61,305 bases of DNA, from the IMG/VR virus record IMGVR_UViG_3300037296_000138, positions 1 through 61,305 of that record. One strand, 5' to 3'. Shown piece by piece: positions 11,789-61,305 of the stretch. Origin of the DNA: a virus. A program made the position numbers and the translations under genes. Position 1 is the stretch's first letter. Every line of letters begins with the position of its first letter. A model generated the notes under the pieces. The model worked only from the letters and a program-made list of their open reading frames with translations. It was not told where the DNA came from and did no database searches.

Positions 11789-12010
11789 ATGAACATCGGT
11801 ATCGAACGCAACACCGTCATGCCCATCGCCATCCAGGCATACTTTGCTCAGACGCAGCCGAGCCCGACTGAAGCACCCCATGCTCAGGAGATCCCACGGC
11901 AGACATTCCTGACTGCTGCAATGGCAAATCCACAGGTTGTGATCCACTTCGATGACATCCATGAGAGCCTATACCTGCGGTATGATCTGCCCAGGATACC
12001 TGTTCTTTAG
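11789..12010 (+). CDS. Small protein (73 aa)
   Basis: GGGGATT precedes the ATG. The sequence includes a Gln/Pro/Thr-rich stretch (residues about 18-38) and a short acidic beta-like end. It closes this operon before a terminator. No family is recognised. Confidence 0.6.
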   Translation: MNIGIERNTVMPIAIQAYFAQTQPSPTEAPHAQEIPRQTFLTAAMANPQVVIHFDDIHESLYLRYDLPRIPVL

Positions 12011-12088
12011 GACACAATCCGCTTGCTCTAGTTTGACTTTTCGTAAGATCAGTGAAACCATATTGCTTAGTTCAGACGTTAGTGTAGC

Positions 12089-12115
12089 AAGGTCGGCAGA
12101 TTGATTGCCGACCTT
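12089..12115 (+). terminator. Hairpin terminator
   Basis: AAGGTCGGCA pairs perfectly with TGCCGACCTT (10 bp, 7-nt loop). Confidence 0.8.
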
Positions 12116-19777: not shown

Positions 19778-20725
19778 ATGTCATCTAAAGACGATATGTT
19801 CGCCAAGATTATTCTCGGCTCGATCGGTGCCACAAACATTCCGATCTATTCAATGCACTGGCACTACCCCCGGCCCATCCATGGCGAAGTCATGACCCAC
19901 AAGGATTTCAGCCGGAACGCTCGCAGCTCCCGTGCTGTGCCTGTGCGGACCATGCTGAACGAGGTGCGAACCAATCCATACGTGCCTTGGCACTGGGGAG
20001 CCAACCAGAAGGGTATGCAGGCCGGCGCCGACAACAGCACTCTGGTGTCTATTCCAACTGAGACAGGTGGTATTCACGACGTAACCCGTGAAGACGCTTG
20101 GCGTAGCGCATCGCGCGCTGCGGCTGCCCATGCAGAAGCGTTCATGGACGCCGAATACCACAAGCAGAACCCAAACCGCTTGCTGGAACCCTTCGCTTGG
20201 ATCGACACCCTGATCACAACCACCAAGCTGGCCAACTTCATGAACCTTCGGGATCATGCGGCTGCCGAGCCTCACTTCCGTGATCTGGCTCAGATGGTAA
20301 AAGAAGCCGTCGATAACCACGGCGACTGCGACTATCTCGAAGACAACGAGTGGCATCAGCCATACATCAACAAAGATGATCATCTGGAGGCGTTGCGTCG
20401 TTTCCCCAATGACTTTGATGCTGGTTCTGCTTGGCTCAACAAGATCTCCTCGGCGCGCTGCGCACGTATCTCCTACAAGCCGTTCGGCGATGGTGATGCG
20501 TCCTACGGGGCAGAGCTTGAGCGCTATGACATGCTGGCCAACGGCGATGCTGTCCATGCCAGCCCGTTCGAGCATCAGGCCAAGCCAGACACACGGGTTA
20601 TCTGCCCTATGACTGGGCAAGCTGAGCGATGGGAAAACCCTGGCCTACACCGCAACCTGACGGGCTGGATACAGAACCGTGCTCTGATCCAAGGCGAATA
20701 TGTGAAGGATGTCTGGCATGGGTAA
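19778..20725 (+). CDS. thyX: ThyX-like flavin-dependent thymidylate synthase, motif order permuted
   Basis: The enzyme would methylate dUMP to dTMP using FAD and methylene-folate. Two hallmark motifs are present but in reverse order compared with classical ThyX. THKDFSRNARSSRA at residues 40-53 resembles the RHRxxSxNExSGRY motif, with the first Arg as Thr and the second as Lys. The SARCARISY...HASPFEH block, normally at the N-terminus, is at residues 225-266. Length is 315 aa, longer than the usual 220-260. Context (dcd before, P-loop kinase after) supports a role in dTTP synthesis. Activity is inferred. Confidence 0.75.
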   Translation: MSSKDDMFAKIILGSIGATNIPIYSMHWHYPRPIHGEVMTHKDFSRNARSSRAVPVRTMLNEVRTNPYVPWHWGANQKGMQAGADNSTLVSIPTETGGIHDVTREDAWRSASRAAAAHAEAFMDAEYHKQNPNRLLEPFAWIDTLITTTKLANFMNLRDHAAAEPHFRDLAQMVKEAVDNHGDCDYLEDNEWHQPYINKDDHLEALRRFPNDFDAGSAWLNKISSARCARISYKPFGDGDASYGAELERYDMLANGDAVHASPFEHQAKPDTRVICPMTGQAERWENPGLHRNLTGWIQNRALIQGEYVKDVWHG

Positions 20726-21272
20726 GGTCACGGTCATCATCGTCAACGGTCAACCCGGCGCCGGCAAGGACACGTTCATTGATTTTGCAAATCAGCAAAT
20801 CACCCAAGTGGATAAAAATATCTTTGTCAAATCCTACAGCTCGATCGACATTGTCCGAGACAATATTGAGTATTTTGGCGTGGATATTACTCTTAAGACC
20901 CAAAAAGATCGGGATCTTATGTCCAACATAGGTGACCTTCTTGAAGAGCACTCTGGTATTCGCTCCAATCTATGTCATCAAAAGATTGCATCTTGTGTCC
21001 AAATACCACGACCTTCCGTTTTGTTTCTTCACATTCGTGAACCAAAGCTTATCCAAAAGGTAATAGATGCATATAAGGATGTTGTGTACGTGGATTTTAT
21101 CCGCGTTCAGATCAAATCTGATCGCGCACTAAATATTACATCCAACCATTCGGACGCTAACACCGATGATATGGAATATGATTTCGTTGTGAATAACAGC
21201 GGAACCAAGGGTCAGCTATACGATCAGGCCACGGACCTGCTCAGATACGCTCGCCTGTTTTCAGGGATGTAA
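20718..21272 (+). CDS. P-loop nucleotide kinase-like protein (184 aa)
   Basis: The start at 20718 overlaps thyX by 8 bases and has AAGGA upstream. The P-loop GQPGAGKDT lies at residues about 11-19, in the form typical of nucleoside or deoxynucleoside monophosphate kinases. Position after nrdJ, dcd and thyX supports a dNMP kinase role, which is inference. The gene is noticeably more AT-rich than its neighbours and uses A/T-ending codons, suggesting separate origin. Confidence 0.72.
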   Translation: MGKVTVIIVNGQPGAGKDTFIDFANQQITQVDKNIFVKSYSSIDIVRDNIEYFGVDITLKTQKDRDLMSNIGDLLEEHSGIRSNLCHQKIASCVQIPRPSVLFLHIREPKLIQKVIDAYKDVVYVDFIRVQIKSDRALNITSNHSDANTDDMEYDFVVNNSGTKGQLYDQATDLLRYARLFSGM

Positions 21273-21276
21273 TACT

Positions 21277-21307
21277 TCACCACCCGGAGATTTTCTTCGG
21301 GTGGTGA
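21277..21307 (+). terminator. Hairpin terminator
   Basis: TCACCACCCG pairs perfectly with CGGGTGGTGA (10 bp, 11-nt T-rich loop) just after the kinase stop codon. There is no T tract downstream. Confidence 0.65.
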
Positions 21308-21349
21308 GATCCTCCATCAACAAAGAACTTCAATTTAAGGAATATGGCT

Positions 21350-22153
21350 ATGCGCCTCACACTTTCATCTTTTGCAGCAATCGCCCTCATGGCGTTTGCC
21401 GGTTCCGCATACGCGGATGACCTGACTATCGCCACTGGCAAGGAGGGTGGCGGCTATGACGCAGCAGCTCGCACCGCGGCAACCAAACTGGCCCAGCGCG
21501 GCCATGTAGTAGAAGTCGTCAATCTGAACGGCTCCGACGAAATCACCCTGGCGGTCTGCTCCGGCAATGCCACAGCTGGTTACACCCAGATCGACGCAAT
21601 GGATGCGCGCGCCAAAGAAGGCTGCAACCTGCGTCCACTGTCGAACTATGGTAACGGCGAATATGCTGTGATCCTGTTTCCACCTGACAGCGATCTTGAT
21701 GCGCTGGATGACCTGACCTCGGCGAACGCTGTGTTGGTCGACACGATTGGCTCCGGCACATCCCTATTCTGGGACACCATTGTGCGTATCGAGCAAACTG
21801 ACGGTTCCGGCGATGACTGGTCTGAAGCCCGTGCGGTCAACGATCCGCTGGCAATGGCCGAACCTCTGGCCAACTTTGGTGACATCGACGCAGTCATCAT
21901 GGTTCGCACTGAAGACAGCTCCGACATCAGCAATCTGGTCAGCCGTGGCTGGAAGATGGGCGAACTGTGGGATCGCCAGATCGACGATTACGAATTCAAC
22001 GGCAAGCCGCTGTATGAAGTCGAAAAGAAAACCTTCACCATCAACAGCCGCAAAACCAAAGCCTACACCTACAAGGTGCTCAGCTTTGCCGTGACCACGG
22101 AAGCTACTTCCCGTGACCGCGAATTGTTCGCTGTTCTCGCAGGGTCTATGTAA
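21350..22153 (+). CDS. Secreted solute-binding protein, TAXI/TRAP-like
   Basis: The N-terminus is a classic signal peptide: MR, a hydrophobic core of about 15 residues, then AYA-DD as cleavage site near residue 23. The mature part begins LTIATGKEGGGYD and continues with a VNLNGSDE segment and 'AGYTQIDAMDA', the layout of TAXI-family TRAP solute receptors (TG..GG.Y, then T.GS.EN). A later DTIGSGTS loop also fits. No transporter membrane subunits are nearby. It stands alone between two hairpins, as a separately expressed cassette. ATG at 21350 is preferred over 21344 because AAGGA is then 8 nt away. Ligand and role are unknown; membership in the type 2 periplasmic-binding superfamily is likely, TAXI itself less certain. 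Confidence 0.7.
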   Translation: MRLTLSSFAAIALMAFAGSAYADDLTIATGKEGGGYDAAARTAATKLAQRGHVVEVVNLNGSDEITLAVCSGNATAGYTQIDAMDARAKEGCNLRPLSNYGNGEYAVILFPPDSDLDALDDLTSANAVLVDTIGSGTSLFWDTIVRIEQTDGSGDDWSEARAVNDPLAMAEPLANFGDIDAVIMVRTEDSSDISNLVSRGWKMGELWDRQIDDYEFNGKPLYEVEKKTFTINSRKTKAYTYKVLSFAVTTEATSRDRELFAVLAGSM

Positions 22154-22177
22154 TCCAACATAGGCTCGCTTGCCGGT

Positions 22178-22201
22178 GTTCCTTCGCAGGTGCGAAGGAA
22201 C
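22178..22201 (+). terminator. Hairpin after the solute-binding gene
   Basis: GTTCCTTCGCA pairs with TGCGAAGGAAC (10-11 bp) around a very short loop, 24 bases after the stop. No T tract follows directly. Confidence 0.6.
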
Positions 22202-22320: not shown

Positions 22321-22680
22321 ATGGAACAATCACCCAACGATAAGCTGCAAGCTATGATCCGAGAACGCAACAATCTGGATGCAACGATTGCAGAGGCGCA
22401 AGCCACAGCCAAAACCGATGCGATCCAGTCGATCAAAGATCTGGTCACCATCAATGACCTGACCCAAGACGAAGTCGTCAAAGCTGCATTCCCAGGCAAC
22501 CGCGGCCGCAAGCCCAAAGGCACAGCTGCCAATGGCGTCACAACCCGCGTTGCTGCTGAACCGAAATACCAAAACCCCAGCGACACGACCCAGACCTGGA
22601 CCGGCAAAGGCCGTCAGCCAAATTGGTTCAAAGAACTCGTCGCCGGCGGCACTGATCCGGAAACTCTCCTGATCGCCTAA
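22321..22680 (+). CDS. H-NS family (HvrA-like) DNA-binding protein
   Basis: The N-terminal 50 residues are a charged helix suited to dimerisation. RGRKPKG at about residues 61-67 resembles an AT-hook linker. The C-terminal part has the H-NS signature: KYQNPSDTTQTWTGKGRQPNW (the core TW-T/S-G-x-GR-x-P-x-W is kept) followed by a short helix ending in LLIA. H-NS proteins bind AT-rich DNA and silence or organise it; HvrA is the Rhodobacter relative. In a phage it could counter host silencing or control phage genes. AGAAAGAAGAACC precedes the ATG. Confidence 0.85.
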   Translation: MEQSPNDKLQAMIRERNNLDATIAEAQATAKTDAIQSIKDLVTINDLTQDEVVKAAFPGNRGRKPKGTAANGVTTRVAAEPKYQNPSDTTQTWTGKGRQPNWFKELVAGGTDPETLLIA

Positions 22681-22792
22681 CCCATTTGGGGGCTATCAGC
22701 TCACTCGTGAGGAAGCTAATACCTTCTAAGAATCGGGACCAGTCGGCTCGATCCTCCAAATAAGCCCCTCAGCATCTGCTGGGGGGTTTTTT
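22681..22792 (+). terminator. Structured leader ending in a strong terminator
   Basis: The terminator is CCCCTCAGC-ATCT-GCTGGGGGG-TTTTTT at 22765-22792. Upstream, GGGGGCT at about 22687 can pair with AGCCCC at 22763-22768, which would disrupt the terminator stem, so attenuation is conceivable. A tRNA-like reading of the region fails at the T arm. Confidence 0.7.
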
Positions 22793-34575: not shown

Positions 34576-37500
34576 TCAATTGAAGAGATTATACCAGGGG
34601 TTAAGTGACGGTGCCCGCTCGAGCATGCTCAGGCCAATGGATCCATCCAAACGACCACCGGCCCAGACCGATGCGAAGTTGTCTGTGATCGGCGAACCAA
34701 TCCCAATATCCGGAGTGACCATCGGGAACAGGAACGTGCTCATCAGGGCGCGCGCTGGGTTATCAATGATCATCCGGCGAGCCACCTTCATCGAGCGGAT
34801 CTTAAATGCCCAGAACCAAGTGGCTCCCATCTTCTCAGCATAGGTCCGGGTCCGGCCTGGCAGCAGGTTAAAGTTCACGAATTCACTGAACACCTCGATC
34901 AGTGCTTCGTCTGCAGTCTTGCCCTTCTTCTGGATCAGGTGATCGTAGTAGATCGCCTTGGCAACGAAGTCGCCATACTGCACCGCTTTAGAGAGACCCT
35001 GGAACAGTGCCGTGTCCTTGGTCAGCAGCAGGTTCTTACCCACCACCTGCACACCGTCAGGCATCTTAGCCACTGCAGCTTCGAGCCAATCCACATACTT
35101 GCCCTGGGTCAGAGCCTCATCCACGTCTGTGACGCCCTCAGAGATGGTAGAGAAGGCACCGGCTTCGATCAGCGGGTGAATGCTCATCCGAGAATTGGCG
35201 TCCTGTAGGGCCGTCTTACGAGCCTCCAGGCGCTTGAGCACATGCGGCAGATTTGTCGACGCAGCAATCTCAGCATCCAGCTCGATGATCTTCTGCACGT
35301 TCTTTAGATATGCGTCGATCTCAACCAGCTTGGTCCGTGTGCCTTTGGCAATAAATACTGGATCCACACCAGAAGCTACCAGCTGCAGGATGTTCGATGC
35401 GGCGTTCATGGCCGGCACGAATACCGAGCGGATCACGATGGTCTGCTTGGCAACCGTCACAGCTGTCTGAACCGTCTTCTCCGCGGTGACCAGATACTTG
35501 AAGGCGTTGGCGCCAAACATGACTGTCGTCGTATCCCGGATAGCAGATGCAACCCGCTCATCCATCCGAGTGTCCCCGGTGAATGCATCAGCCACAGACG
35601 GATCACGGTATCCCACAATGTTGTCGATCATGTCCTTACGGACCATGAACTTACCATCAGGATAGTTTTCCTTGATGTAGTTCTGCATCTCGATCGGAAC
35701 AGCAGCCCAAGAATCACGGTATACAGCGTCCTTCATCTTTGGATTGTTGAGCCAGATATACTCACCCATCCGCTTGTCTTTCTGATCCTTGAGCATGATC
35801 TCAAGGGACCGATCGACCAGCATCTCGTTATACTCTTGTGCCAGCTTCTCCTCGTTTTGACGGCCGGCCCAAGCCCCAATCATTTCGCCCAGATTGGTGT
35901 TCTTGTTCATTGAGACCAGGACGTCGTTATCGACCCCAAACTCATATGCTACAACCACACCACCCTGGCCGAATACTGGCAGCATGGCACCTTCTACGAT
36001 GCCCTGCTTATTTGTCATCTTGATGCGATCATTGAGATGACCGGCTTCCTTGCCGAGGACTGAACCAGCAGTCAGGCTGCCCAACGTGCGGCCAGTCAAA
36101 GGATCAACCCCATTCACCGAAGTCTGCACGGTCTGCATAATCCCCTGGGAATATGTATTCCGGCCGGCCACCGACGAGAAGTAGTAGGACCGCTTGTCCG
36201 CAGCATACGAAGACCCGATCGAGTTATGCGCGCGCAGCTTCGTGTAGCCACGCTGCATCATTGTGCTGTGCTCGGAATCCTTGGCCAGAACCAAGCTGAG
36301 ACCACCCTGGCTCTCCGATGGGATGTGCCCTTTCCAGCCATTCAGCTCGGCTTCCACCGTGTTGATTTTGGCATGCTCTGCAGTGCGCAGGGTATCCAGA
36401 TAGTGAACCATGAACTCGAGGGCTTCGCTCTCGTTCTCGATCAGGTCTGACATCATCTTGCGTTCATTGGTGCTCAACCGATCTAGTGCATAGAGGCTCA
36501 CCAGCTTGTCGATCAGATCCACGATTGTATCGTCGGACAGATCAATAGCCTTCTTCTCGAGCTTCTCGTTCAGCAGCATAGAGATTGCATTGGCATTGCG
36601 CAGCTGGTTCACAGACGAGCCCTTGCCCATCATGTGATCAGCCAGCTCACCACCCTTGCGCTGATACTCCTTGAAGATGGCTGCCGGCACCAATGCCTTC
36701 AGCTTACCTTCCATGCTGGAGATCTCTGTCGCCAGCACTGCAGGGGTCTTGATCATCTTCATGAGCGAGGACACCTGGTAGCCGCGCAGAGCAGCCAGAT
36801 CCGACTGACCCATGGCCTTGAACATCGCTGTCCACTGGCCTTCGGAGACCTTACCCTTGAACTTAGATTTGAAGATCTTAGGCAGCGTTTCCCGGAATGC
36901 CTGACGCACCGCGGAGACCTGAGCCTTCACCTTGTCGACCAGCAGATAGACCGAAGCGTTCTCGTCAGTGATGCCGATGATCTCACCGATCATGTCCCGC
37001 ATAGGCTTCCACATGTTTGAGTCATTGGTCAGGGAGATCACCTCTTTGCCAAGCAGCGCACCGCGCTCCTTGTTCAGCAAAGCGGCTACCAAGCCGGCGC
37101 TCTGATACAAGCTTTTGGTTGCAACATTCTTCGCCGATTGAGCCTTCCGATCAGAGAAGGAACCAACCCACTCGGTAGCCGTTTGCAGGGCCAAGGAAGC
37201 TTTGCCGTCACCGCGGGAGAGCATCTCCTGGCTCTTTGCCAGCACATAGTTCTCCGCCTGGTCCTCAAGTGAGCTCAGCTTCACAGCCAGCTTATCAAGG
37301 GCGGCCGATACATTCTTGTTCTTGGTTCCCTCATCAATGCTCATGCCCAGCGCAGTCATGCCGGAATTTGCAACCGATGTGAGGAAACCATCCACACTTG
37401 TTGTGTCGACGTCCAGTGCTTTCGGCATGTCGATCTTCTCGAGCACCGCGCGCAGCTTCTCGTTGGTCTGGCTCAGAGCCACAAACGATGTCAGCAGGTT

Positions 37501-40500
37501 GGACACACCCTCCTTGTTGGAGCTGTTCTTGTCGAGCAGCGTCAAGGCGTTGAACAGGGTCTGAGCACGGACGTGTTCGTCATCCACCTCAGATGCCTCG
37601 TTCTCCATGAAGACGGTGTAATCCTGGTTCTCCAGGAATTCGTCATAGATCTTCTGGACCCGCAGCATCGACGTGCTGTCGATCTCCAGGTTAGCCTGTA
37701 GGTTGGCCTGGATCATCATGAACGCCTGCTTCTCCTGCATCGTCATAGCGAAACCAGCGGCTGCCAGCCGGTCCACAGTCTCCACAGACTGCTTTAGGTA
37801 GACCTTGGCTTCATCCTTGATGATCGCATCCTTGGATTTCAACCGGCCGGCCAGCTTGGTCCGGTAGTTGAAGATCATCTTGGATAGGCGCTCGTTGTTC
37901 GCTGGATTGAACCCACCTAGGGTCTGGTTCAGCGTCATCGAAGCATCCACCTGCAGGTTACCTTTGCCAATCTTGGTGGAAGCCAGGACGTTGGTGTTGA
38001 ACAGGATGTTCGACCACATGTCCCGCTTTTCGAAGCCCATCAGGCGACGCATCAGCTCTAGGGTTTTACCTACCAGTTGAGCCATAGGATTACGCACCAC
38101 AGTCTTCTCTGTGATGTTGATCAGGTTCTGGTTGGTCAGGGTCCAGGCCATGAATTCGTTCAGCGCCACAGTGGCCTGCTCGTATTCAGTCAGGCTCTCA
38201 TTATCCAAAGCCTCAGCGATTTGGTTCTGCACGTTCCGGATGATGATGCCTTCACGAGGGGAAGCGATCTCTGGATCGAACCGCATGAATTCATCCATCA
38301 GCACTTCGAGCCGGCGCACAGCATCACGATCCTGCTTCGACAGGGTCTCAGGGTTCATATAGTAATTGTAGACTTTGTGCATCGTGGTGGCGTGAACCAA
38401 CTCGTGCAGCACAGTCTCTGCAGAGATATTGGATACCCACATGGTATTCGTGCCCATGTCCATCTGGCCCAGCTCCAGATCTGGATTGCCGGATACCTCA
38501 CGGAGGTCTGCCTTGGAACCAAACACGATCGACATATCCCAGTCGACAGATTTCCGAATTGCTTTCAGCACTTTCTTCTGCTGATCATTCAGGCTCGAGC
38601 CCTCACTCTCAAGCATCTTGAGCAGGGTGGCGCCATCCATTTGGACGATGCTAGTATCCTCAACCTTATTGCCGAATTCCTCGATCAGTTTGGTGAATTT
38701 GGTGCTAGGATTCTGAACCAGAGTTGCCTCTTTGGTCAGCTTACGCAGCTCCTTCTGGTACATGACGTTCATCTCATAGACGAGCTCTTCACCATCAGGC
38801 TTACGGATCCACCGACCCTCATGAGTGTGGGGTGTCTCTGTCGATGCCATGTGATCCACGGAGAAACCCAGCTGCTTCATGACATTCTTGCGAGCCTGGA
38901 TCGACGTAGCATTGTATTTCAGCTCTTCGCCTAGCTCTACGATGAGCTTTTCAAATGCATTCTGACCCAGCTCAACCAGCTCAGCCTCGATAACATCATA
39001 CTTGGCTTGAGCTGTCTGCACAGCATCACTGCCCTTGGTGCCTGTGGTTCCAACCAGAGTAGCCCGGGCAGCCTTTAGACGAACCAAGGTGTCACGCAGC
39101 ATTTCGGTGCCGTCATATTCCTTGAATGTACCGATCAGCGTTTCGATTGCTTGAGCACTCTGGATGTTCTTATGGCCGCCGATACGCAGGAAGGCTTGAA
39201 AGCTATCCGATGCATCCTGAGCAGGGTTGGTCAGCCAGCCCTTCGTCACAGCTTCGTTGATCAGGTATCCGTATTCCTTCATCATGTTGGCGGCCAACTC
39301 GACACCGTCAAACACCGGCAGGGACTTCGCAGGGAAGTTGTCACCAGCGTAAATGTTGTTGATCATCAGGCCGTCACCACGGTTCTGAACCAGGTTAGGC
39401 GAAGCAGCCACACCCGGGTCAGATGGCGCCGCCAGGGACACCTCTTGACGGTACTCACCATTCAGACCCCGGGAGATCGAATACTGGCTGTTCTTCATTT
39501 CAGACAGACCCAGGTGGATCGACTGATCATCGTTCTCAATGATCGGAGCAAACTCCTGCAGGCTCAGCAAGATGCGATCATAGTCAGCCTTGGAGAGGAT
39601 CTCGCTAGGCAGCAGCTTACCAGATTTCCGCTGAGCAGCAGTCTCTTCGTCGATGGCCCGAGCGAACTTCTCGATCAGGACAGCGCCTTGGATCTGCGTA
39701 GCCTGCTGGATCATCTTCGTTGTGCCGATGGTTGCACCCATCATATCATCAATGGCTTCGACCATAGAATTCGTGAATAGGTTCTTCACCAGGCCGCTGA
39801 ACTGGTCTGTTTGATCCTTGTTGAATTGGAAATTCACCACATCGCCCATGTCGGAAATGCTCAAACCCTTCTGGTTCGAGAAGGACTTCCAGGATCCCTC
39901 GACCTTGTAGACCACATTGCTGGTCAGGGTCTGCAAATCCTCCATGATCTCAGGGTAGTTCTCGAATATCGGCAGATCCTTCAGCGTGGCTTTAGGGTTG
40001 GTCACCCGCAGCTCACCAAGGTCAGACATCTGAGCGTAGATCTCACCCATCAAAGCGTCAGCCACGTTGTTGTTGATGCCCTGCGCACCCGAACCATAGA
40101 CCTTGATGGTCAGAGGGTTCTTCAGGATGCCACGGCCAATGATCATCTCATCACCATCGAAGGTGACTTCACCGAATTTCTCCAGGAAGCGGATCATAGC
40201 CTCGTTCACAGGGGCGATCTTTGGATTCTGAGCCAACACATCACGCTGGTTGGTTAGGAGCTCACCGAGCTTTACCGCGGCATGCTGATACAGGTCCGAC
40301 TTGTCGACCGTCTGCACATGTTCGTTGAGGGTCCGGTTCTTCTTGTTGAAGAAGAGGCCGCCCTTGGCCAGCAGCTCCAGTTGATCAGTCGTGAACATTC
40401 CCGCCATAAAGTGAACCATAGCGTTGATGGGGCCGTCGGTCTTACCGTCAGCCTCGATCGAGAGGTTGTGGGCAAACTTGCTCAGAGCCTCACCACCAGT

Positions 40501-43500
40501 GATCTTTGCAGCCTCATATTGAGCCACTGCAATCAGGGAATGTATCGTCTTGTCGCTGGTGTTATTGCCAACCACAGCCTCGATACGAGCGTAGATCGCA
40601 TCAGACATTTCGCCGCCTTCAGCCTGCCACTCTTGGATCGCTGCAATGCCGTCACCGAATTCTTCGTAGATCTTCTCACGAACGGTGGCGATTGCATCGT
40701 CACGATAGACCTTCTCGGTCTTCACCAGACCAGAAGACTGAGCCACAGTCATCCAGAAGTCGCCGGCAGCCTCACCATTTTCATCGGTCATATCCAGGAT
40801 AGCATCCGTGGATACAAAGATCTCCCGAGCATGCTTGCTGTTCTGGGGGCCGAAGCCTTCCATCATCAAGCGACCTACCTTTGAGAAATAGTAGTCGTAG
40901 AATATTTTCACTTCACTGGGATCTTTGCCAGCCATCTCAGCGTGATCCATCAGCGCCTTGTGCTGCAGCATCACGTTGTTGAAGCCCATCTCGTTGGACA
41001 TATTCTTGCCAGTCACCGAGCGCAGATGGTTCTTGTTCATCCGCTTCAGCTTGTCTTCAGTCAGGTCGATCGAACCAAGCAGACGGTTATACCTGCCTTT
41101 GCCCATGGCATCCATCAGAGCAAACATCGGCTGGTTCACACGATACTCAATTGACCGGACGTTGTTCTTCACCTTCTTCTCGAAGGCGCTCAACATGCTG
41201 AATTTGTTCCGCTTCTGGCTCTTGGTATCCTTGTTAGGAATCCGATCGAAGAAGAACCGTGGGTCAGCACCAGGCGTCGCAATCCGGCGGATGATGTCCA
41301 CCCCATTGCCCAGCATCTCAGCGTTCTTCACGTTCTCATCAGTCTGTGGGTTGATCATCGTCAGCTCACCAAAGGTCTTCTTACCGTCGATACGGGAAGG
41401 CATTGGGTAGCGCTCCTCGGTCAGCAGGTTGCCACGCTTCTGCATGACGAAGATCATCTCAGCAGCCACCGAGTGCGCGATGCCCATGGTGTCGCTCATC
41501 GTCACAGAGTCGTCAGCTGTCACACCCCAGAATTCCATGATAATCCGGCCGAGTTCTTCCTTCGCATTGACCACGGACACACCGGAGTTGATCGCGTTGA
41601 TCAGGCTCTCAGTGACCTGGTTCTCTTGGATCCCAAAGGACTTGGCGATGCGCTCTGCGTTCTGGAAGCTCTTGCTGGTGGCGTTGGTTGCCCAATGCAC
41701 AGCAGCCAGTGCAGCCTGTTCAATTAGACGCTGGTCATACATTCCAGTTTCTACGTTGAAGATCTGAGCAGTGCGAAGACGAGTGAGATTACTCTCATCA
41801 CCTTCCTGCTTTAGAATATCACGGACAGTATCTTTGCTTTCGCTATTCCATTTAGCATTCAGCCGCATGTTCATATCTTTGATGATCTGAGGCACATGCT
41901 TATTAATGATGTTTTCAGCGACCTTCTTTGTTTGGTCGTTAATAGTTTCATCTGCAGCCAATAGACCCAAGAAACCAGCAACAGGCTTTACGAAATCTGT
42001 AATAGTAGATTTGGATTTATCCGTCATCTTGAATGCACGGATAAATTTGCTGATCCCATTGGTCTTCACCAGAGGGATCGTTGTCATGTCGATCTCGATG
42101 GAGTCCTGATCAAGCAGCACAGGCTCATAGCCGATTGCCTTGAACGCAGCCTTGTTGGCATCCCGCTCCATTGCAATGGCAGCAGGGTCCATCAGGTTTT
42201 TCGGATAGACTTCACCATTGTTGATCTGACGCACATGCTGGAATTCATGCTCAATGATGAATTCAATATATGTATTCAGACCTGAGTCTTTCATGAACTT
42301 CTTGAAATGCTCAACGTCCATTTGCTCAAATACGACAGCCTTTTGATCGGAAGTGGTTTCACCATTCCCGTCCAAATAAGTCATACCTGCATTGTAATCA
42401 GCTTCAATCTTATCCAGATCTACGCTGATTGTCTGACGGGAAGGGGAATAGGCAGCCATGCTACCTTTCCGAGTTTCCACAACCAGCTTGGTCTTCTTAC
42501 CTTTCAGGCGCTCCTGGAATTTGGCAATCACAGGATTGACCACAGGCTCAGCGGGAGTGGCTTCAGCCTCATCCTTTGCAGCAGTGCGCTTGGCTTTCAG
42601 GTCAGCCTGGAACTGAGCAGCTTCCGCGGCAGCAGCAGCACGACCCTTCTTACCCTTGGCCCGGGGCTTAGCCTTCAGAGCGGCAGCCTCAGCCTCAGCT
42701 TTGGCCTTTGCCTCAGCTTCTGCTTCTGCATCTGCCTTGGCTTTGTCAGCAGCAGCTTTCTCCTCTGCGGCCTTATCATCGGCAGCTTTCTTATCAGCCA
42801 CAGCCTTGTCTGAAGCAGCCTTCTTGGCTTCAGATTCGGCCTTGGTCTTGGCAGCAAATGCAGCAGCGTCAGCAGCCGCCTGTTCAGCATTCTTGTTGGC
42901 GGTGTCGGCCGACGGAGTGGACGAGCCAGGCTTGCCCTGCGTAGCCACCCGATTGATGGAGCTGCTATCCAGCCGGACACCCACGTTGATGACATCGCTC
43001 AGGGGAACCAAATCACCGAGCGGCTTGCCATTCAGATCACCGAACATAGCATTCAGATTGTTATACATGGAGACCAGAGCCATGGCTTCCACGTAGATAC
43101 CCTTGGCCAGTTCGATCGAGCCCGGGCTGTTCTTGTGGACCTGGATCACACCAGCAGATTTGTGATCTTTAGGCAGCATGATACCATCAGGAGACAGGTT
43201 CGAGAACCGGACCTTGTCACCGCTGCGGACAGATTCGTTGATCGCTGCAACCTTGTTCATGTGCGATTGGGCAAACATACCCAGGTGCTCCAGAGAGTCC
43301 TTGGCTGTCACCATTTCGCCGAACCGGTTCTTGATCGGCTTACCTTTGGCAATCAAGGATTGGATAATGTCAGAGTGGAAATCACTGATCGACCGGCCAT
43401 TCACCTTTTTGCCCTTGGAGCTCTTCCGCTCAGAACCTTCAACCATGATCTCGTCACGGACTTCCAGCCAGGTCTTGCTGACCACTGGATCCTTGTTGCT

Positions 43501-45804
43501 GGCTTTGCCGGCAGGAGAATTGTTGATCTTGTCTGCAGCTTCCTGAGAGATCTTCACCTTCAGGTCAGCGACTTTGTTGATCTCACGAGCCAAGTCACCG
43601 GCCAGCTTCAGGTTACGAGCAGCATCATCTGTGAGGGTGATCTTCCCCTGCACACGCTGGTCCATGATGATGTCGATCAAGTATGGGTTCACACCACCCG
43701 GGTTGGCCACAGACATCGACTGGGCTTCACGCACGACGTCAGGAGTAACCTCTGGCAGGTCATCTGGGTCTTGGTTCATCTGAGCTTCTTGCGCAGCCAC
43801 CAGAGCCGAAATGAATTTCGGGTTCTGAGAGATCGCCATGAGCTCTTCTTTGACGTTCAGCATCTTCATCTTGATAGGAGAGTCATCAGGCATAGATGCG
43901 ATTTCTGCCGGCAGATCCGCCACAGCAAATGCAGACAGCTTCATCACTTCGTCAAACAGATAGAGCGCAGCGCTTTGGTTCTCGGCAGGGGACAGCTTAC
44001 CAGCGTCGATAGCATTGACGATGTTACCCATCCGGTTGATCCGGTCAGTTGGCTGAGTTGGGTTACCATCACCCTCATCTTCGATGATCGAGATCTTTGA
44101 CACCGCGGCAGGAATTGCAGCGACTTCATCTTCAGCCATAGTAGTGATCGCCATCAGCTCATTGGAGATCACCTCCTTGCGCGCCTTCAGCTCAGGACTG
44201 TCTGGCTTGATCCCGTTGTCGAGGTCTTCCGACACCTTCGCGCGCAGAGCATCAAACGTATCATTGACGTTAGTCCGCACCGAACGAATACGCTCGGTGG
44301 TAGCCTTATCGCCGACAGTGCTCTGATCATCCCAGCCTTTACGGATGTTCTCCATGCGCTTGTCTACAGCCTGGCCCGCACGCTGTGCTGCAGCCTTGCT
44401 CACGTCGGTCACGATCTCAGCAGCCAGTCCTGAGCCCTGAGTTACGCCTGCCATCCCCAGGCCGCCCACAGCGCCCTCTACGAAGGCTTCACCGACACCA
44501 TCCATTGCAGACCGGCCATCATTGGCATTCTCGATCACAGCACGGTTAGTCGACAGCTCGCCTGTGGCTCCCTGATAGGCTTCCTCGAGGGTCTCACCAG
44601 CGATAGCCTTCAGGGCTCCAGTCTTGGAACCAACAGCGAATGGCGCCGCTTCAAACTTAGACATGGCAGCACCACCCAGCAGGGCGGGGCCGAATTGTTT
44701 AACGGCACCGGACATACCAGTCTCGCCGGCCAACTCGTTACGGGCACCTTCTGGGGTCTCACCGTTCTCGATCAGCTGACGATACCGTGGCGAATTCACG
44801 GCCAGGTCTTCATGGCTCATAGCCAGGATCTCTTGAGCCGCCTGGGTGTAAACCCCGGAGGATTCAGTTCCGGCAATTGCAGCGGCTACCGCGGGGCGCA
44901 CATACTGCTGCTGGGTTGCCACTTTAGCAGCCAGGCTTTGCTCTGCAGTGACCAGTCGGCTACCCATCTTGATAGCAGTCTTCTTGGCTAGATTTGCAGC
45001 GATAGCAGATGGAGCCAATGAACCAAGGCCACCGGCAGCGGTCTGCATGGCATTGCTAGGGTTGTCGATTGTAGAACCAAGCATATCCATCACGCCACGG
45101 CCGAAACCTTCGAACGAGGCTTCCATCTCCGATTTGCCGGATGTCAGGGACTTGTCAGACTCAGTGGTTGCACGGTTCTCGTTGGCATCCAGCGCATCCA
45201 TCAGTTGCTGGCTTTCAGTATTCTGACGGGTGCCTTCGGACTGGCTATCTAGGAACGCACCGCTCACAGCAGCAGTAGCCTTGGCAATCTGGGTGCCGGC
45301 CTTGTCTGACAGGATGCCTACACCAGCTGCAGCGATACCGCCGGCAGAGTTGATTGCCCCACCAACAATAGATGCCGAGGTATCCATTGCCAGATCTTCA
45401 AAGCTGACTTCGGTATTCAGGGTGTCATCAAAATCGCGCTCAGCCTCAAACATACGCCAGTTCTGATCAGCAATCTCTTTGCCATATTTACCGACCAGCT
45501 CAGCATAATTCATTTCGCTCTGGTCACGCACAAACTGAGCACCACCCAGATCATTACCATTCCGCTTTGCAGCAACCACTGTCCGCATGAAATCTGGTTC
45601 AGCAAACATCTTGCGAGCCATCTCAACATCTTGTGCTTGGTTCTGCTGGGGGGTGGGAGCGGGCACATTCACCTTGGCAGCGGCGGCCCGGGCGATAGGG
45701 GAACCATCAGAGAAATCTGACAGATTGACTCCAACCAGCGGCTGCGGTGCAGGTGCAATACCCAGAGCTTTACCAATTTGGTCGAAATCAGATGCGTCAG
45801 ACAT
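34576..45804 (-). CDS. Virion RNA polymerase (N4 gp50-like), 3742 aa
   Basis: The N4-like hallmark protein is carried in the capsid and injected to read early genes. The single-subunit polymerase core is identifiable: SKVG-R1645 followed by FGPQNSK (the TxxGR...PQ element), motif A AD1786GKTDG, motif B R1891-x3-K1895-x7-Y1903-G, and motif C VFD2166GV. Spacings (141, 117 and 263 residues) are close to those in the N4 mini-polymerase. An Ala/Lys/Glu-rich linker lies at residues about 968-1068. Two HExxH motifs flank the core: H1186-EFQ-H and H2467-ELV-HATTMH. The remaining N- and C-terminal parts are large, helical and unassigned; in N4 the C-terminal part is needed for packaging. Start 45804 has GGAG; a TTG 5 codons earlier is less likely. 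Confidence 0.93.
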   Translation of the reverse strand: MSDASDFDQIGKALGIAPAPQPLVGVNLSDFSDGSPIARAAAAKVNVPAPTPQQNQAQDVEMARKMFAEPDFMRTVVAAKRNGNDLGGAQFVRDQSEMNYAELVGKYGKEIADQNWRMFEAERDFDDTLNTEVSFEDLAMDTSASIVGGAINSAGGIAAAGVGILSDKAGTQIAKATAAVSGAFLDSQSEGTRQNTESQQLMDALDANENRATTESDKSLTSGKSEMEASFEGFGRGVMDMLGSTIDNPSNAMQTAAGGLGSLAPSAIAANLAKKTAIKMGSRLVTAEQSLAAKVATQQQYVRPAVAAAIAGTESSGVYTQAAQEILAMSHEDLAVNSPRYRQLIENGETPEGARNELAGETGMSGAVKQFGPALLGGAAMSKFEAAPFAVGSKTGALKAIAGETLEEAYQGATGELSTNRAVIENANDGRSAMDGVGEAFVEGAVGGLGMAGVTQGSGLAAEIVTDVSKAAAQRAGQAVDKRMENIRKGWDDQSTVGDKATTERIRSVRTNVNDTFDALRAKVSEDLDNGIKPDSPELKARKEVISNELMAITTMAEDEVAAIPAAVSKISIIEDEGDGNPTQPTDRINRMGNIVNAIDAGKLSPAENQSAALYLFDEVMKLSAFAVADLPAEIASMPDDSPIKMKMLNVKEELMAISQNPKFISALVAAQEAQMNQDPDDLPEVTPDVVREAQSMSVANPGGVNPYLIDIIMDQRVQGKITLTDDAARNLKLAGDLAREINKVADLKVKISQEAADKINNSPAGKASNKDPVVSKTWLEVRDEIMVEGSERKSSKGKKVNGRSISDFHSDIIQSLIAKGKPIKNRFGEMVTAKDSLEHLGMFAQSHMNKVAAINESVRSGDKVRFSNLSPDGIMLPKDHKSAGVIQVHKNSPGSIELAKGIYVEAMALVSMYNNLNAMFGDLNGKPLGDLVPLSDVINVGVRLDSSSINRVATQGKPGSSTPSADTANKNAEQAAADAAAFAAKTKAESEAKKAASDKAVADKKAADDKAAEEKAAADKAKADAEAEAEAKAKAEAEAAALKAKPRAKGKKGRAAAAAEAAQFQADLKAKRTAAKDEAEATPAEPVVNPVIAKFQERLKGKKTKLVVETRKGSMAAYSPSRQTISVDLDKIEADYNAGMTYLDGNGETTSDQKAVVFEQMDVEHFKKFMKDSGLNTYIEFIIEHEFQHVRQINNGEVYPKNLMDPAAIAMERDANKAAFKAIGYEPVLLDQDSIEIDMTTIPLVKTNGISKFIRAFKMTDKSKSTITDFVKPVAGFLGLLAADETINDQTKKVAENIINKHVPQIIKDMNMRLNAKWNSESKDTVRDILKQEGDESNLTRLRTAQIFNVETGMYDQRLIEQAALAAVHWATNATSKSFQNAERIAKSFGIQENQVTESLINAINSGVSVVNAKEELGRIIMEFWGVTADDSVTMSDTMGIAHSVAAEMIFVMQKRGNLLTEERYPMPSRIDGKKTFGELTMINPQTDENVKNAEMLGNGVDIIRRIATPGADPRFFFDRIPNKDTKSQKRNKFSMLSAFEKKVKNNVRSIEYRVNQPMFALMDAMGKGRYNRLLGSIDLTEDKLKRMNKNHLRSVTGKNMSNEMGFNNVMLQHKALMDHAEMAGKDPSEVKIFYDYYFSKVGRLMMEGFGPQNSKHAREIFVSTDAILDMTDENGEAAGDFWMTVAQSSGLVKTEKVYRDDAIATVREKIYEEFGDGIAAIQEWQAEGGEMSDAIYARIEAVVGNNTSDKTIHSLIAVAQYEAAKITGGEALSKFAHNLSIEADGKTDGPINAMVHFMAGMFTTDQLELLAKGGLFFNKKNRTLNEHVQTVDKSDLYQHAAVKLGELLTNQRDVLAQNPKIAPVNEAMIRFLEKFGEVTFDGDEMIIGRGILKNPLTIKVYGSGAQGINNNVADALMGEIYAQMSDLGELRVTNPKATLKDLPIFENYPEIMEDLQTLTSNVVYKVEGSWKSFSNQKGLSISDMGDVVNFQFNKDQTDQFSGLVKNLFTNSMVEAIDDMMGATIGTTKMIQQATQIQGAVLIEKFARAIDEETAAQRKSGKLLPSEILSKADYDRILLSLQEFAPIIENDDQSIHLGLSEMKNSQYSISRGLNGEYRQEVSLAAPSDPGVAASPNLVQNRGDGLMINNIYAGDNFPAKSLPVFDGVELAANMMKEYGYLINEAVTKGWLTNPAQDASDSFQAFLRIGGHKNIQSAQAIETLIGTFKEYDGTEMLRDTLVRLKAARATLVGTTGTKGSDAVQTAQAKYDVIEAELVELGQNAFEKLIVELGEELKYNATSIQARKNVMKQLGFSVDHMASTETPHTHEGRWIRKPDGEELVYEMNVMYQKELRKLTKEATLVQNPSTKFTKLIEEFGNKVEDTSIVQMDGATLLKMLESEGSSLNDQQKKVLKAIRKSVDWDMSIVFGSKADLREVSGNPDLELGQMDMGTNTMWVSNISAETVLHELVHATTMHKVYNYYMNPETLSKQDRDAVRRLEVLMDEFMRFDPEIASPREGIIIRNVQNQIAEALDNESLTEYEQATVALNEFMAWTLTNQNLINITEKTVVRNPMAQLVGKTLELMRRLMGFEKRDMWSNILFNTNVLASTKIGKGNLQVDASMTLNQTLGGFNPANNERLSKMIFNYRTKLAGRLKSKDAIIKDEAKVYLKQSVETVDRLAAAGFAMTMQEKQAFMMIQANLQANLEIDSTSMLRVQKIYDEFLENQDYTVFMENEASEVDDEHVRAQTLFNALTLLDKNSSNKEGVSNLLTSFVALSQTNEKLRAVLEKIDMPKALDVDTTSVDGFLTSVANSGMTALGMSIDEGTKNKNVSAALDKLAVKLSSLEDQAENYVLAKSQEMLSRGDGKASLALQTATEWVGSFSDRKAQSAKNVATKSLYQSAGLVAALLNKERGALLGKEVISLTNDSNMWKPMRDMIGEIIGITDENASVYLLVDKVKAQVSAVRQAFRETLPKIFKSKFKGKVSEGQWTAMFKAMGQSDLAALRGYQVSSLMKMIKTPAVLATEISSMEGKLKALVPAAIFKEYQRKGGELADHMMGKGSSVNQLRNANAISMLLNEKLEKKAIDLSDDTIVDLIDKLVSLYALDRLSTNERKMMSDLIENESEALEFMVHYLDTLRTAEHAKINTVEAELNGWKGHIPSESQGGLSLVLAKDSEHSTMMQRGYTKLRAHNSIGSSYAADKRSYYFSSVAGRNTYSQGIMQTVQTSVNGVDPLTGRTLGSLTAGSVLGKEAGHLNDRIKMTNKQGIVEGAMLPVFGQGGVVVAYEFGVDNDVLVSMNKNTNLGEMIGAWAGRQNEEKLAQEYNEMLVDRSLEIMLKDQKDKRMGEYIWLNNPKMKDAVYRDSWAAVPIEMQNYIKENYPDGKFMVRKDMIDNIVGYRDPSVADAFTGDTRMDERVASAIRDTTTVMFGANAFKYLVTAEKTVQTAVTVAKQTIVIRSVFVPAMNAASNILQLVASGVDPVFIAKGTRTKLVEIDAYLKNVQKIIELDAEIAASTNLPHVLKRLEARKTALQDANSRMSIHPLIEAGAFSTISEGVTDVDEALTQGKYVDWLEAAVAKMPDGVQVVGKNLLLTKDTALFQGLSKAVQYGDFVAKAIYYDHLIQKKGKTADEALIEVFSEFVNFNLLPGRTRTYAEKMGATWFWAFKIRSMKVARRMIIDNPARALMSTFLFPMVTPDIGIGSPITDNFASVWAGGRLDGSIGLSMLERAPSLNPWYNLFN

Positions 45805-58887: not shown

Positions 58888-59107
58888 TGGTCAGTGCCTC
58901 CTGCAGCTGGCCTAACTGGAGGACCAGGATTTCATTTTGCTCTTGTAGATCTTCAGCCAGTTTGGCGGCGGCCTGATAAGCCTCGATCCGATTCTCTAAG
59001 CTGGTCACAGCAATAGAAAGCCCGAGGGCTTTCTGCTTGTAGAACATGGCTGCCCCTCCCAGGGCAACCACGCCTGTGAATGCTAATGCATACAGGTATT
59101 TCATCAT
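58790..59107 (-). CDS. Inner-membrane spanin subunit, Rz-like
   Basis: A single N-terminal membrane helix (residues about 5-22) is followed by a long coiled-coil-like periplasmic segment rich in Glu, Gln and Leu (residues 30-75) and a polar tail. This is the classical i-spanin layout. The start overlaps the endolysin stop (TAATG). Confidence 0.75.
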   Translation of the reverse strand: MMKYLYALAFTGVVALGGAAMFYKQKALGLSIAVTSLENRIEAYQAAAKLAEDLQEQNEILVLQLGQLQEALTNAEEYDTPLSDVFRNTVERMRDTQSSVGGPSK

Positions 59108-59757
59108 TACATGAACTGCTTCTTCATCCGCTCACGGAGGATGTCCCCCACGATGATGGGGCTGGATACCTTGTCCATATCAGGCAGGACAGCGAAATCC
59201 CATTTACTATTCTGGGTGATGCCCAGAGTCGGCTGGATCTCAGCATGGCTCAGTGTCGAATAGCGGGACACCGGAATGTCAAAATCACGGCAGTGCTGTG
59301 CAGTCCGGGCCAGCATAGAGTCGATCATCTCCCAGTTCAGTGGGGAATCCCCCCAGCTAAATGGATAATCTTTAGCGCCACGCATAGCAGCCACAGCCTC
59401 ACCAATAGCCCCTGTATTGGCGTTGAGCGTGTGAGAAACACCGACAGAGCCAGCACGATAATCAGCTTGGTGTTCAGGACGAGCGCCACCATCGTATGAG
59501 ATACCTTGGAAGTCACTTACACCATTGTAGTAGGAAGCGATCTCAGTCGAGACCACGTAGCCCGAAGCAGTCCAGTGCCAGTGGACACGGTGCAGCCCAG
59601 AGGCGTGGAACAGCTGGCTCTCATACTTGACGCACTTGGCCGCCTTAGCAGCCAGCACAGCAGCGTCAGTGTTGCGGCCACGGATACCGTCGATGCCCTT
59701 GGGATCGAACCCCAGGGCAGCGCAGCGGGCTTGTAGGTCACGGACGGTATATCCCAT
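59107..59757 (-). CDS. Endolysin, N-acetylmuramoyl-L-alanine amidase-like with peptidoglycan-binding N-terminus
   Basis: The first 38 residues (LQARCAALGFDPKGIDGIRG) form a peptidoglycan-binding repeat. The main domain has HWHWTA near residue 60, SHTLN near residue 107, and LSHAEIQPTLG ... KWDF near residues 165-185, resembling the zinc His residues and end motif of the Amidase_2 family. The N4 endolysin is instead reported as a muramidase, so the lysis module differs. It lies in a run with holin and spanin candidates. Confidence 0.78.
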   Translation of the reverse strand: MGYTVRDLQARCAALGFDPKGIDGIRGRNTDAAVLAAKAAKCVKYESQLFHASGLHRVHWHWTASGYVVSTEIASYYNGVSDFQGISYDGGARPEHQADYRAGSVGVSHTLNANTGAIGEAVAAMRGAKDYPFSWGDSPLNWEMIDSMLARTAQHCRDFDIPVSRYSTLSHAEIQPTLGITQNSKWDFAVLPDMDKVSSPIIVGDILRERMKKQFM

Positions 59758-60257
59758 CAGAGAAGATCCTTTTCATCAATTACTTGGAAAATGTTGCTCT
59801 GCACACACCGGCGGGCAACAGGGATATCCCAGATACCCAGCACGACTGTGTGGCAGGTGTCGATGTAGTATGAGCCCGTGTCAAAGCCTCGCGCACGAGC
59901 CTCAGCCATCTGTTTTTGTCCACCCATCCACCAGGTCAGCAGGAGAGGCTCAGGGAGCTTCTTCCCAGGGCCATAGATGAACGTGCCCTCAGAGTCAGCT
60001 GAATAGATCAGCTCACCGTTGGTGCGCCGTATATCGACTGTGAAGTAGCCCCGGAACTCCCGGAGCACTTCACGATGCACGACCATGGTAATTGGTTCAC
60101 CCACCAAATTCAGCGGAGAGACCTCGACCGTTTCAAGATGGATCCAAATACGATCCATCAAGAGGGATGGCACGAAGTAGAAAAAACAGATGAGTATAAC
60201 CATCCACGTCATCGGTGTGTTGCGGTTCGAGAGCGTTTGACGTGTCACGGTGTTCAT
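59757..60257 (-). CDS. Membrane-anchored protein of unknown function in the lysis block (166 aa)
   Basis: The start at 60257 overlaps the upstream stop (ATGA). One hydrophobic segment (residues about 17-35, 'WMVILICFFYFVPSLL') anchors the protein; the remaining 130 residues look like a beta-rich periplasmic domain with two Cys. It may be a second lysis protein or a regulator; this is inferred from position only. Confidence 0.65.
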   Translation of the reverse strand: MNTVTRQTLSNRNTPMTWMVILICFFYFVPSLLMDRIWIHLETVEVSPLNLVGEPITMVVHREVLREFRGYFTVDIRRTNGELIYSADSEGTFIYGPGKKLPEPLLLTWWMGGQKQMAEARARGFDTGSYYIDTCHTVVLGIWDIPVARRCVQSNIFQVIDEKDLL

Positions 60258-60538
60258 TGTCCGAGCCTTTTTTGTACGAGGCCTTTCACGAAGGGCACAT
60301 CGGAAATCATTGCGGATACAGTTTCCAACGCCAGGAACCCTAGTGCTGTGACTAGGATCCCTGTGATGGTCAGACTCCAACCGATATAGGCGGTCAGATC
60401 TGGTGCGATGCTGAAGCCAAAGCCAGCGGACGCAAGCGTAATCAGGAACCGAGATTTGAAAGGCTTCTCTTCATTGCTCTGAAAAACGTAAACGGCTGCA
60501 GCCATGATGGCGACATAAAATTCGATAGGTTTGTTCAT
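60254..60538 (-). CDS. Holin candidate (94 aa)
   Basis: Three hydrophobic helices (about residues 7-20, 33-50 and 53-75), short size and a basic C-terminus fit a holin. It lies upstream of the endolysin in the same direction. No family signature is certain. Confidence 0.7.
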   Translation of the reverse strand: MNKPIEFYVAIMAAAVYVFQSNEEKPFKSRFLITLASAGFGFSIAPDLTAYIGWSLTITGILVTALGFLALETVSAMISDVPFVKGLVQKRLGQ

Positions 60539-60558
60539 GGTCTGCCTCAGCTACCTGA

Positions 60559-61305
60559 TTACAATACTGCCACTGAGCGAACGCCTCCGTTTACATCCTC
60601 TAGGTCATCCACTTGCCAATCTGCATCGGTAAACGGGTTGGAATCCCAGATCGTGATAACTCGGCTTTCATCCCGCGTGGTTTGGTCAAACTGGTCTTTG
60701 TTGACGCCATTCTTTCGCAGGTAGCCCTGGACCCGTAGGCCAGAGTTGTTATCCACATATCGCATAGACTGAACCAAAGCGCGAATGCCAATTGGTGAAT
60801 TAGCGCCCACATAGTCAGAAAAGTCACCAGCAATGCGTGCGTTCAACTGATCCGTGGAGATACCAGAGCCGGTATCTTCATCTGCAAGGGACTGCCATGT
60901 GCCATTCCATGTGTTCTCGGTAGCATCATCCACAGGCGACATCGTAGCCAGACGAGCACCCAACAGTGGTTCACCGTCAGACATCATCATCTCGGATATA
61001 GCAAATTCACAACTACCATCACGATGGAATGGGTGTGTGAAGCTAACTTTACCGATGTTCTTCTTACGAGTGTCTGGATAACTAAAGACATACTGTAGGA
61101 TGCCGTTAACGTAGAATTTCAGATAGTGGTTTACACCATCTTGTTTCACATTAATCGTATAAGTAACCATTTCACCTTCTGGGAAGAATCCCATGATGTT
61201 ACCACCGGTCAAGTAGCTCTGATCACTAATCTGCATCAATACGTTTGAGAAGTTTGTAGTGACGAGGAACGAAGCTAGACGAGCACCATTAACATCGTCA
61301 ATTCG
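60559..61305 (-). CDS. C-terminal part of a tail or appendage protein (partial)
   Basis: The frame is open to the right window edge, so the start lies outside. The visible 248 residues are beta-rich with a LamG/lectin-like stretch (TYTINVKQDGVNHYLKFYVNG, then KKNIGKVSFTHPF), suggesting a carbohydrate- or receptor-binding module. It precedes the lysis genes. In N4-like phages, tail appendage genes lie on this side; the exact identity is not certain. Confidence 0.65.
   Translation of the reverse strand, partial: RIDDVNGARLASFLVTTNFSNVLMQISDQSYLTGGNIMGFFPEGEMVTYTINVKQDGVNHYLKFYVNGILQYVFSYPDTRKKNIGKVSFTHPFHRDGSCEFAISEMMMSDGEPLLGARLATMSPVDDATENTWNGTWQSLADEDTGSGISTDQLNARIAGDFSDYVGANSPIGIRALVQSMRYVDNNSGLRVQGYLRKNGVNKDQFDQTTRDESRVITIWDSNPFTDADWQVDDLEDVNGGVRSVAVL

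Follow-up and report, generated by a model that had tools for sequence, protein, structure and literature searches.

An orphan TAXI-like protein of an N4-like phage, a predicted periplasmic amino-acid receptor from a family spread over unrelated phages

The TAXI-type TRAP solute-binding proteins (TIGR02122) include the glutamate receptors VcGluP (VC0430) and TtGluBP. In VcGluP the ligand is contacted by residues Y45, S75, Q93, E125, Y200 and M201, among which Y45 and Q93 are dominant, the exchanges Y45A and Q93A leading to a 213- and a 990-fold loss of affinity, respectively; only 78% and 54% of TAXI proteins have an equivalent of Y45 and of Q93, respectively (PMC11574862). TAXI receptors can moreover pair with the unrelated permease GltS (PMC12344293). 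In phages, the annotation 'TRAP transporter solute receptor' is carried by proteins of Ruegeria phage RpAliso, Rhodobacter phage RcXuper and Ralstonia phage RP12; the literature found on such proteins consists of annotations and contains no functional study, and no description of the protein was found in papers on MD18, DSS3Φ8, N4-like roseophages and N4-like auxiliary genes. A preliminary description of the locus had stated that no role is described in this phage group, which fits the literature found, although the three homologues named above are already annotated.

The gene analyzed here is located in a stretch of 61,305 nt, hereafter the window, that comprises positions 1 to 61,305 of the virus record IMGVR_UViG_3300037296_000138. 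It encodes an N4-like DNA polymerase and two RNA polymerase subunits of the N4 type (PHROG 2166 and 2051). A 3742-aa open reading frame (34576-45804, minus strand) is comparable in size to the N4 virion RNA polymerase, which it would represent according to its size and position. Judged by this gene content the phage is N4-like, as had been proposed. The features of the gene region, in which comparison was made with a sister N4-like contig (L001), are the following:

20709 to 21272, plus strand: neighbouring gene encoding a dNMP-kinase-like protein (PHROG 139, 6.8e-7)
21276 to 21308, plus strand: upstream hairpin of 15 bp without T-tract, absent from the sister phage
21337 to 21341, plus strand: ribosome-binding site AAGGA, at which the DNA similarity to the sister phage begins, to end at the stop codon of the following gene
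21350 to 22153, plus strand: coding sequence (267 aa) of a PHROG 6856 family member, the orphan TAXI-like periplasmic binding protein
21350 to 21415, plus strand: signal peptide of the Sec/SPI type, predicted by eye, cleavage after AYA
22178 to 22201, plus strand: downstream hairpin of 10 bp without T-tract
22321 to 22680, plus strand: neighbouring gene encoding a protein with the H-NS C-terminal domain (PF00816, 3.5e-15)
22762 to 22789, plus strand: intrinsic terminator after the H-NS-like gene, the nearest one with a T-tract on this strand

The ATG codon at 21350 is preceded by the AAGGA motif at a distance of 8 nt, whereas an alternative ATG at 21344 is only 2 nt away from the same motif and is replaced by TTG in the sister phage. 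The spacing and the TTG codon favour position 21350, so that the product most likely comprises 267 aa. Inspection of the N-terminus (…AFAGSAYA/DD) revealed a basic n-region, a hydrophobic core and an AxA site but no lipobox cysteine, and these features, along with their conservation in relatives, point to a Sec signal peptide as in TAXI proteins and agree with the clear signal peptide noted before. The dN/dS ratio of 0.077 in comparison with the sister phage indicates that the gene is maintained by purifying selection.

The preliminary description had placed the gene alone between two hairpins, in a cassette of its own. Both hairpins are real, since they are more stable than shuffled sequences (z -3.6 and -3.3), but such structures are commonplace in this phage, with about 18 hairpins with stems of at least 9 bp between the called genes of the window. 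As the DNA similarity to the sister phage spans only positions 21337 to 22153, the hairpins are outside the conserved part, and the view that they define a cassette was rejected. The region around the gene yielded no match in Rfam, and the two hairpins are therefore not a known RNA element. The sister phage contains its own terminator-like hairpin with a T-tract 3' of the binding-protein gene. Concerning the neighbours, the dNMP-kinase-like gene has a GC content of 0.43 compared with about 0.53 for the phage and is likely a separate acquisition; the H-NS-like protein has a counterpart in the sister phage. Further apart, the segments 1874-2006 and 11995-12114 of the window, outside or at the edge of called open reading frames, are 83% identical to the sister phage and are possible conserved regulatory elements.

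The deduced protein belongs to PHROG 6856, a family filed under 'unknown function', according to a significant full-length profile match (E 1.7e-17) in which residues 3-240 align with positions 1-246 of the 288 in the profile. The TAXI profile TIGR02122, by contrast, gave an E-value of 0.0017 and 17.3 bits against a cut-off of 84.35 bits; in a reverse profile search host TAXI receptors were matched at 1e-9 to 1e-12. Pfam provided no significant match, and searches of PDB sequences with the protein or an early profile detected no TAXI protein, so that the relationship was settled only by structure comparison and alignment of the ligand pocket. An AF2 model built from the window and related-locus sequences (pLDDT 76, pTM 0.70, low confidence over residues 1-23 in the signal region) showed a type II periplasmic-binding fold, and its six best PDB matches were all TAXI structures (4ddd, 9ibo, 1us4, 8s4j, 9ibp and 8u79), including glutamate-bound VcGluP and TtGluBP. 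The best match had an E-value of 4.6e-12 and a probability of 1.00; the TM-scores of 0.5-0.6 perhaps reflect a different domain angle in the model and the closed crystal forms. In a phylogenetic tree, 15 family members form one group apart from the TAXI receptors (support 100/99). The closest neighbours of the N4-like pair in this tree are an isolate prophage (L024) and Mu-like elements, but the joining branch is long and the depth there is unsure. The earlier assignment to TAXI/TRAP-like receptors thus holds for the fold, but the protein misses the family cut-off and, as described below, has lost the C-terminus.

For comparison of the pocket, an L-INS-i alignment was used in which the VcGluP numbering was checked against the PDB sequence. 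The aligned set of 20 proteins consists of 18 phage or prophage members, three of them in prophage or Mu-like elements, and two chromosomal members from Mangrovicoccus, and it takes in Vibrio T5-like phages, Vibrio phage YC, Noxifer, EBPR siphovirus 2 and Achromobacter phage Motura. The equivalent positions in the window, with residues numbered in the 269-aa form, are assigned by this alignment:

21455 to 21457, plus strand: codon of Y38, equivalent to VcGluP Y45
21533 to 21535, plus strand: codon of S64, equivalent to VcGluP S75
21587 to 21589, plus strand: codon of Q82, equivalent to VcGluP Q93
21659 to 21661, plus strand: codon of E106, equivalent to VcGluP E125
21749 to 21757, plus strand: GSG motif (136-138), equivalent to VcGluP 154-156

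The residues Y45, S75, Q93, E125, D95 and G156 of VcGluP are kept in all 20 family members. The contacts to the ligand side chain differ in the Rhodobacterales group, in which S40 is replaced by K/Q, V44 by G, Y46 by D/E, H123 by G and Y200 by M/L. Accordingly, the ligand may be other than glutamate, and a loss of binding is conceivable; the simplest reading of the alignment is that recognition of an α-amino acid would be kept with an altered side-chain preference. The Lys/Gln at S40 and the Asp/Glu at Y46 found in most Rhodobacterales members could, as a matter of speculation, accommodate a zwitterionic side chain, for instance the one of diaminopimelate. The C-terminal segment with the motif PLHPGA, present in nine of nine TAXI proteins, is found in none of the 20 members, one of which (L011) ends at a contig edge. 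If the segment serves to dock to the permease, its absence would be suggestive of a loss of docking.

A search with the TRAP membrane component profile TIGR02123 gave no match in the whole window record or in the sister record, and no transporter gene of any kind adjoins the gene in the window. The annotations of the phage loci read show no TRAP permease next to the gene, and none is beside any of the 20 aligned members in the stretches read. These data bear out the earlier statement that transporter subunits are missing, and together with the lost TAXI C-terminus they indicate that the protein probably works as an orphan. A tentative explanation is nutrient feeding, by which a host transporter (TAXI-TRAP, GltS or another one) would be loaded with amino acids during infection and the gene would act as an auxiliary metabolic gene. 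The conserved amino-acid pocket, the many TAXI receptors and permeases of Rhodobacterales such as Mangrovicoccus and the pairing with GltS mentioned above are consistent with it, whereas the missing C-terminus in all members argues against it. In addition, a search of the Rhodobacteraceae MAG G004, which carries a Mu-like element with a family member, detected no TAXI receptor at 1e-5 and, as to TAXI-type permeases, nothing but a weak match under the cut-off, which is weak negative evidence because the completeness of this MAG is not given. Finally, since a single phage clade spans hosts as varied as Vibrio, Pseudomonas, Achromobacter and Rhodobacterales, the protein is unlikely to dock to one particular permease. 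The more specific proposal of the preliminary description, a TRAP receptor feeding a host TRAP system, is not substantiated, in view of these observations and of the missed TAXI cut-off.

The breadth of the family became apparent from a search with the Vibrio-type member, by which 307 phage records, including jumbo phages, were matched (Vibrio 293, Pseudomonas 4, Agrobacterium 2, Sinorhizobium 2, Achromobacter 2, and others). As most of the Vibrio records are near-identical isolates, there are about nine independent lineages, and the family is spread over about nine unrelated phage groups. Six siphoviruses of Ruegeria, Phaeobacter and Rhodobacter encode proteins that are 40-44% identical to the window protein; DSS3Φ8 is CbK-like (PMC4961962), and this affiliation was extended to the other five by size and gene order. 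A family member is also present in the isolate prophage L024. In Mu-like elements of Rhodobacteraceae (L010 and L020) the gene is flanked, in a moron-like manner, by a small-terminase-like gene and the gene for the large terminase. Two species of Mangrovicoccus contain chromosomal orphan copies between alr and an aminotransferase gene (L021 7914-8741 and L022 7914-8741), and among 393 genomes of the same order a full relative was detected only in Mangrovicoccus, besides one fragment at 6e-21. No plasmid homologue was found. In Achromobacter phage Motura (L068 4971-7796) the gene adjoins genes for homospermidine synthase and glutathionylspermidine synthase, and in two Vibrio phage lineages it adjoins a gene for the 'secreted protein' PHROG 301 (L064 4619-4927, DUF1523-like; L009 5906-6253). 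A secreted protein of the DUF1523/PHROG 301 type (PF07509) was rejected as a general partner, since it was not detected in the window, in the sister phage or in most carriers.

That the protein is structural or virion-associated appears highly improbable. The position between head-packaging genes in the Mu-like elements would suit such a role, which is opposed by the signal peptide, the conserved pocket and the location of the gene: in the N4-like phages it is surrounded by genes for replication and nucleotide metabolism, and in the CbK-like stretches read it is away from head genes.

The sister phage encodes a binding protein with 88% identity to that of the window (dS 0.94), whereas flanking and core genes are 45-81% identical with dS values from 1.6 to saturation (neighbours 45-75%, dS above 2.4). 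Examples are the dNMP kinase (48%), thymidylate synthase (59%), ribonucleotide reductase (74%) and a putative capsid protein (81%). Among the other called genes, a comparable closeness to the sister phage is confined to members of the following block:

59107 to 61170, minus strand: right-end block encoding an endolysin, a 166-aa membrane-anchored protein, a holin-like 94-aa protein and a 203-aa protein

In this block, the endolysin (93%, dS 0.54), the holin-like protein (90%, 0.89) and the 203-aa protein (89%, 0.63) are highly similar to their counterparts, and the 166-aa protein is less close (79.5%, dS 1.96). Apart from the latter, the block (59107-61170) has the appearance of a recently exchanged lysis block in a genome that is for the most part 45-75% identical to the sister phage. 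Homologues of the 166-aa and holin-like proteins were not found among 50,697 phage records. The contrast in identity and dS indicates that the binding-protein gene was exchanged, or retained after an exchange, over a period similar to that of the lysis genes, a shared pattern that may only reflect swapping of host-range or accessory genes.

Genes for rII, membrane or SPFH proteins accompany the gene in several carriers. In the sister phage (L001 6904-10805) it is directly followed by rIIA and then rIIB (PHROG 2979 and 2886), and in CbK-like phages by genes for two-helix membrane proteins and for an SPFH protein. The immediately following gene in CbK-like roseophages (L003 5820-7354; also L004, L005 and L007) specifies a small protein ending in the conserved motif RPVRALxLAY, after which the two-helix membrane proteins and the SPFH/band 7 protein are encoded. 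In the prophages L020 and L024 the stop codon overlaps the start of a predicted membrane protein of 40 or 55 aa, such short open reading frames being unproven.

These neighbours, the exchange pattern common to the lysis cassette and the lysis inhibition reported in N4 (Schito 1967, as listed among the references of PMC4193335) are compatible with a ligand-dependent periplasmic regulator of lysis timing or superinfection, the bound form of which would contact a holin, a spanin or another membrane protein. This role is possible and we regard it as tentatively as nutrient feeding. It draws on gene neighbourhood and exchange pattern, and the link to lysis is thus one of guilt by association: the window contains no rIIA or rIIB between the binding-protein gene and the H-NS-like gene, the associated neighbours vary among lineages, and in other phages the gene is found among nucleotide, tRNA or structural genes. 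We lean slightly towards regulation rather than feeding because of the lost C-terminus, the host breadth, the company of lysis and membrane genes and the exchange pattern.

Superinfection exclusion, by which a host inner-membrane channel or receptor would be occupied and blocked against other phages, is an unlikely role. It would accord with the predicted periplasmic location and with family members in prophages, but does not need the invariant pocket residues, and no receptor link was found; the earlier suggestion that the protein occupies a host transporter or receptor thus gained nothing from the analysis.

Taken together, the protein is, with good support, a secreted, ligand-binding orphan receptor, and its action in the periplasm by either the feeding or the regulatory route is somewhat favoured. 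It would be a soluble 'Venus flytrap' protein descended from TAXI-type glutamate receptors, the pocket of which may still hold an L-amino-acid-like ligand by its amino and carboxyl groups. Following synthesis in the infected cell and export by the Sec pathway, it would capture an amino acid in the periplasm, whereupon the bound form would either hand the ligand to a host secondary transporter or, in a ligand-dependent manner, act together with membrane proteins that control lysis or superinfection. A more far-reaching and rather doubtful reading is that PHROG 6856 comprises phage-specific periplasmic ligand sensors, in which an amino-acid receptor without transporter docking was repurposed to read a periplasmic or cell-wall-derived amino acid and to adjust lysis timing or lysis inhibition. 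If the protein does sense a nutrient or cell-wall product, the timing of lysis by marine phages would be tied to the amino-acid state of the host.

New in this analysis are the pocket residues kept in all members along with the lack of PLHPGA and, in the stretches read, of an adjacent TRAP permease, the occurrence of the family in about nine unrelated phage groups, the exchange pattern relative to the sister phage and the rIIA/rIIB genes following the gene in that phage. Accordingly, a widespread family gains a fold, a prediction of its ligand class and a pocket that can be tested, and the question is posed why unrelated Gram-negative phages keep an amino-acid receptor without a transporter.

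A comparison with the known systems delimits the position of the protein. With the TAXI-type TRAP proteins VcGluP and TtGluBP it has the fold, the signal peptide and the residues Y45, S75, Q93 and E125 and the GSG motif in common, but about 50 C-terminal residues are gone, the side-chain part of the pocket is altered, the score misses the cut-off of the family and the TRAP membrane component is missing. BP0403, which works with GltS, is likewise a TAXI receptor without a TRAP permease, and the equivalent Y/Q pair is key to glutamate binding, but unlike the phage protein it is an elongated dimeric lipoprotein translationally coupled to gltS. Within PHROG 6856, to which proteins of Vibrio, Pseudomonas (Noxifer), Achromobacter (Motura) and EBPR phages belong, the N4-like version falls into a Rhodobacterales clade whose pocket shows the sequence GK(x)GGGYD. 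The 'TRAP transporter solute receptors' of the CbK-like siphoviruses RpAliso and RcXuper, within the identity range of 40-44%, are likewise orphans, although their genes, unlike that of the window, are followed by those for small membrane proteins and the SPFH protein. The Mangrovicoccus homologue is 43% identical and has the same truncated form, but is encoded on the chromosome outside any recognisable prophage. The T4 protein RI, finally, is unrelated by descent and would resemble the proposed regulator in its mode of action.
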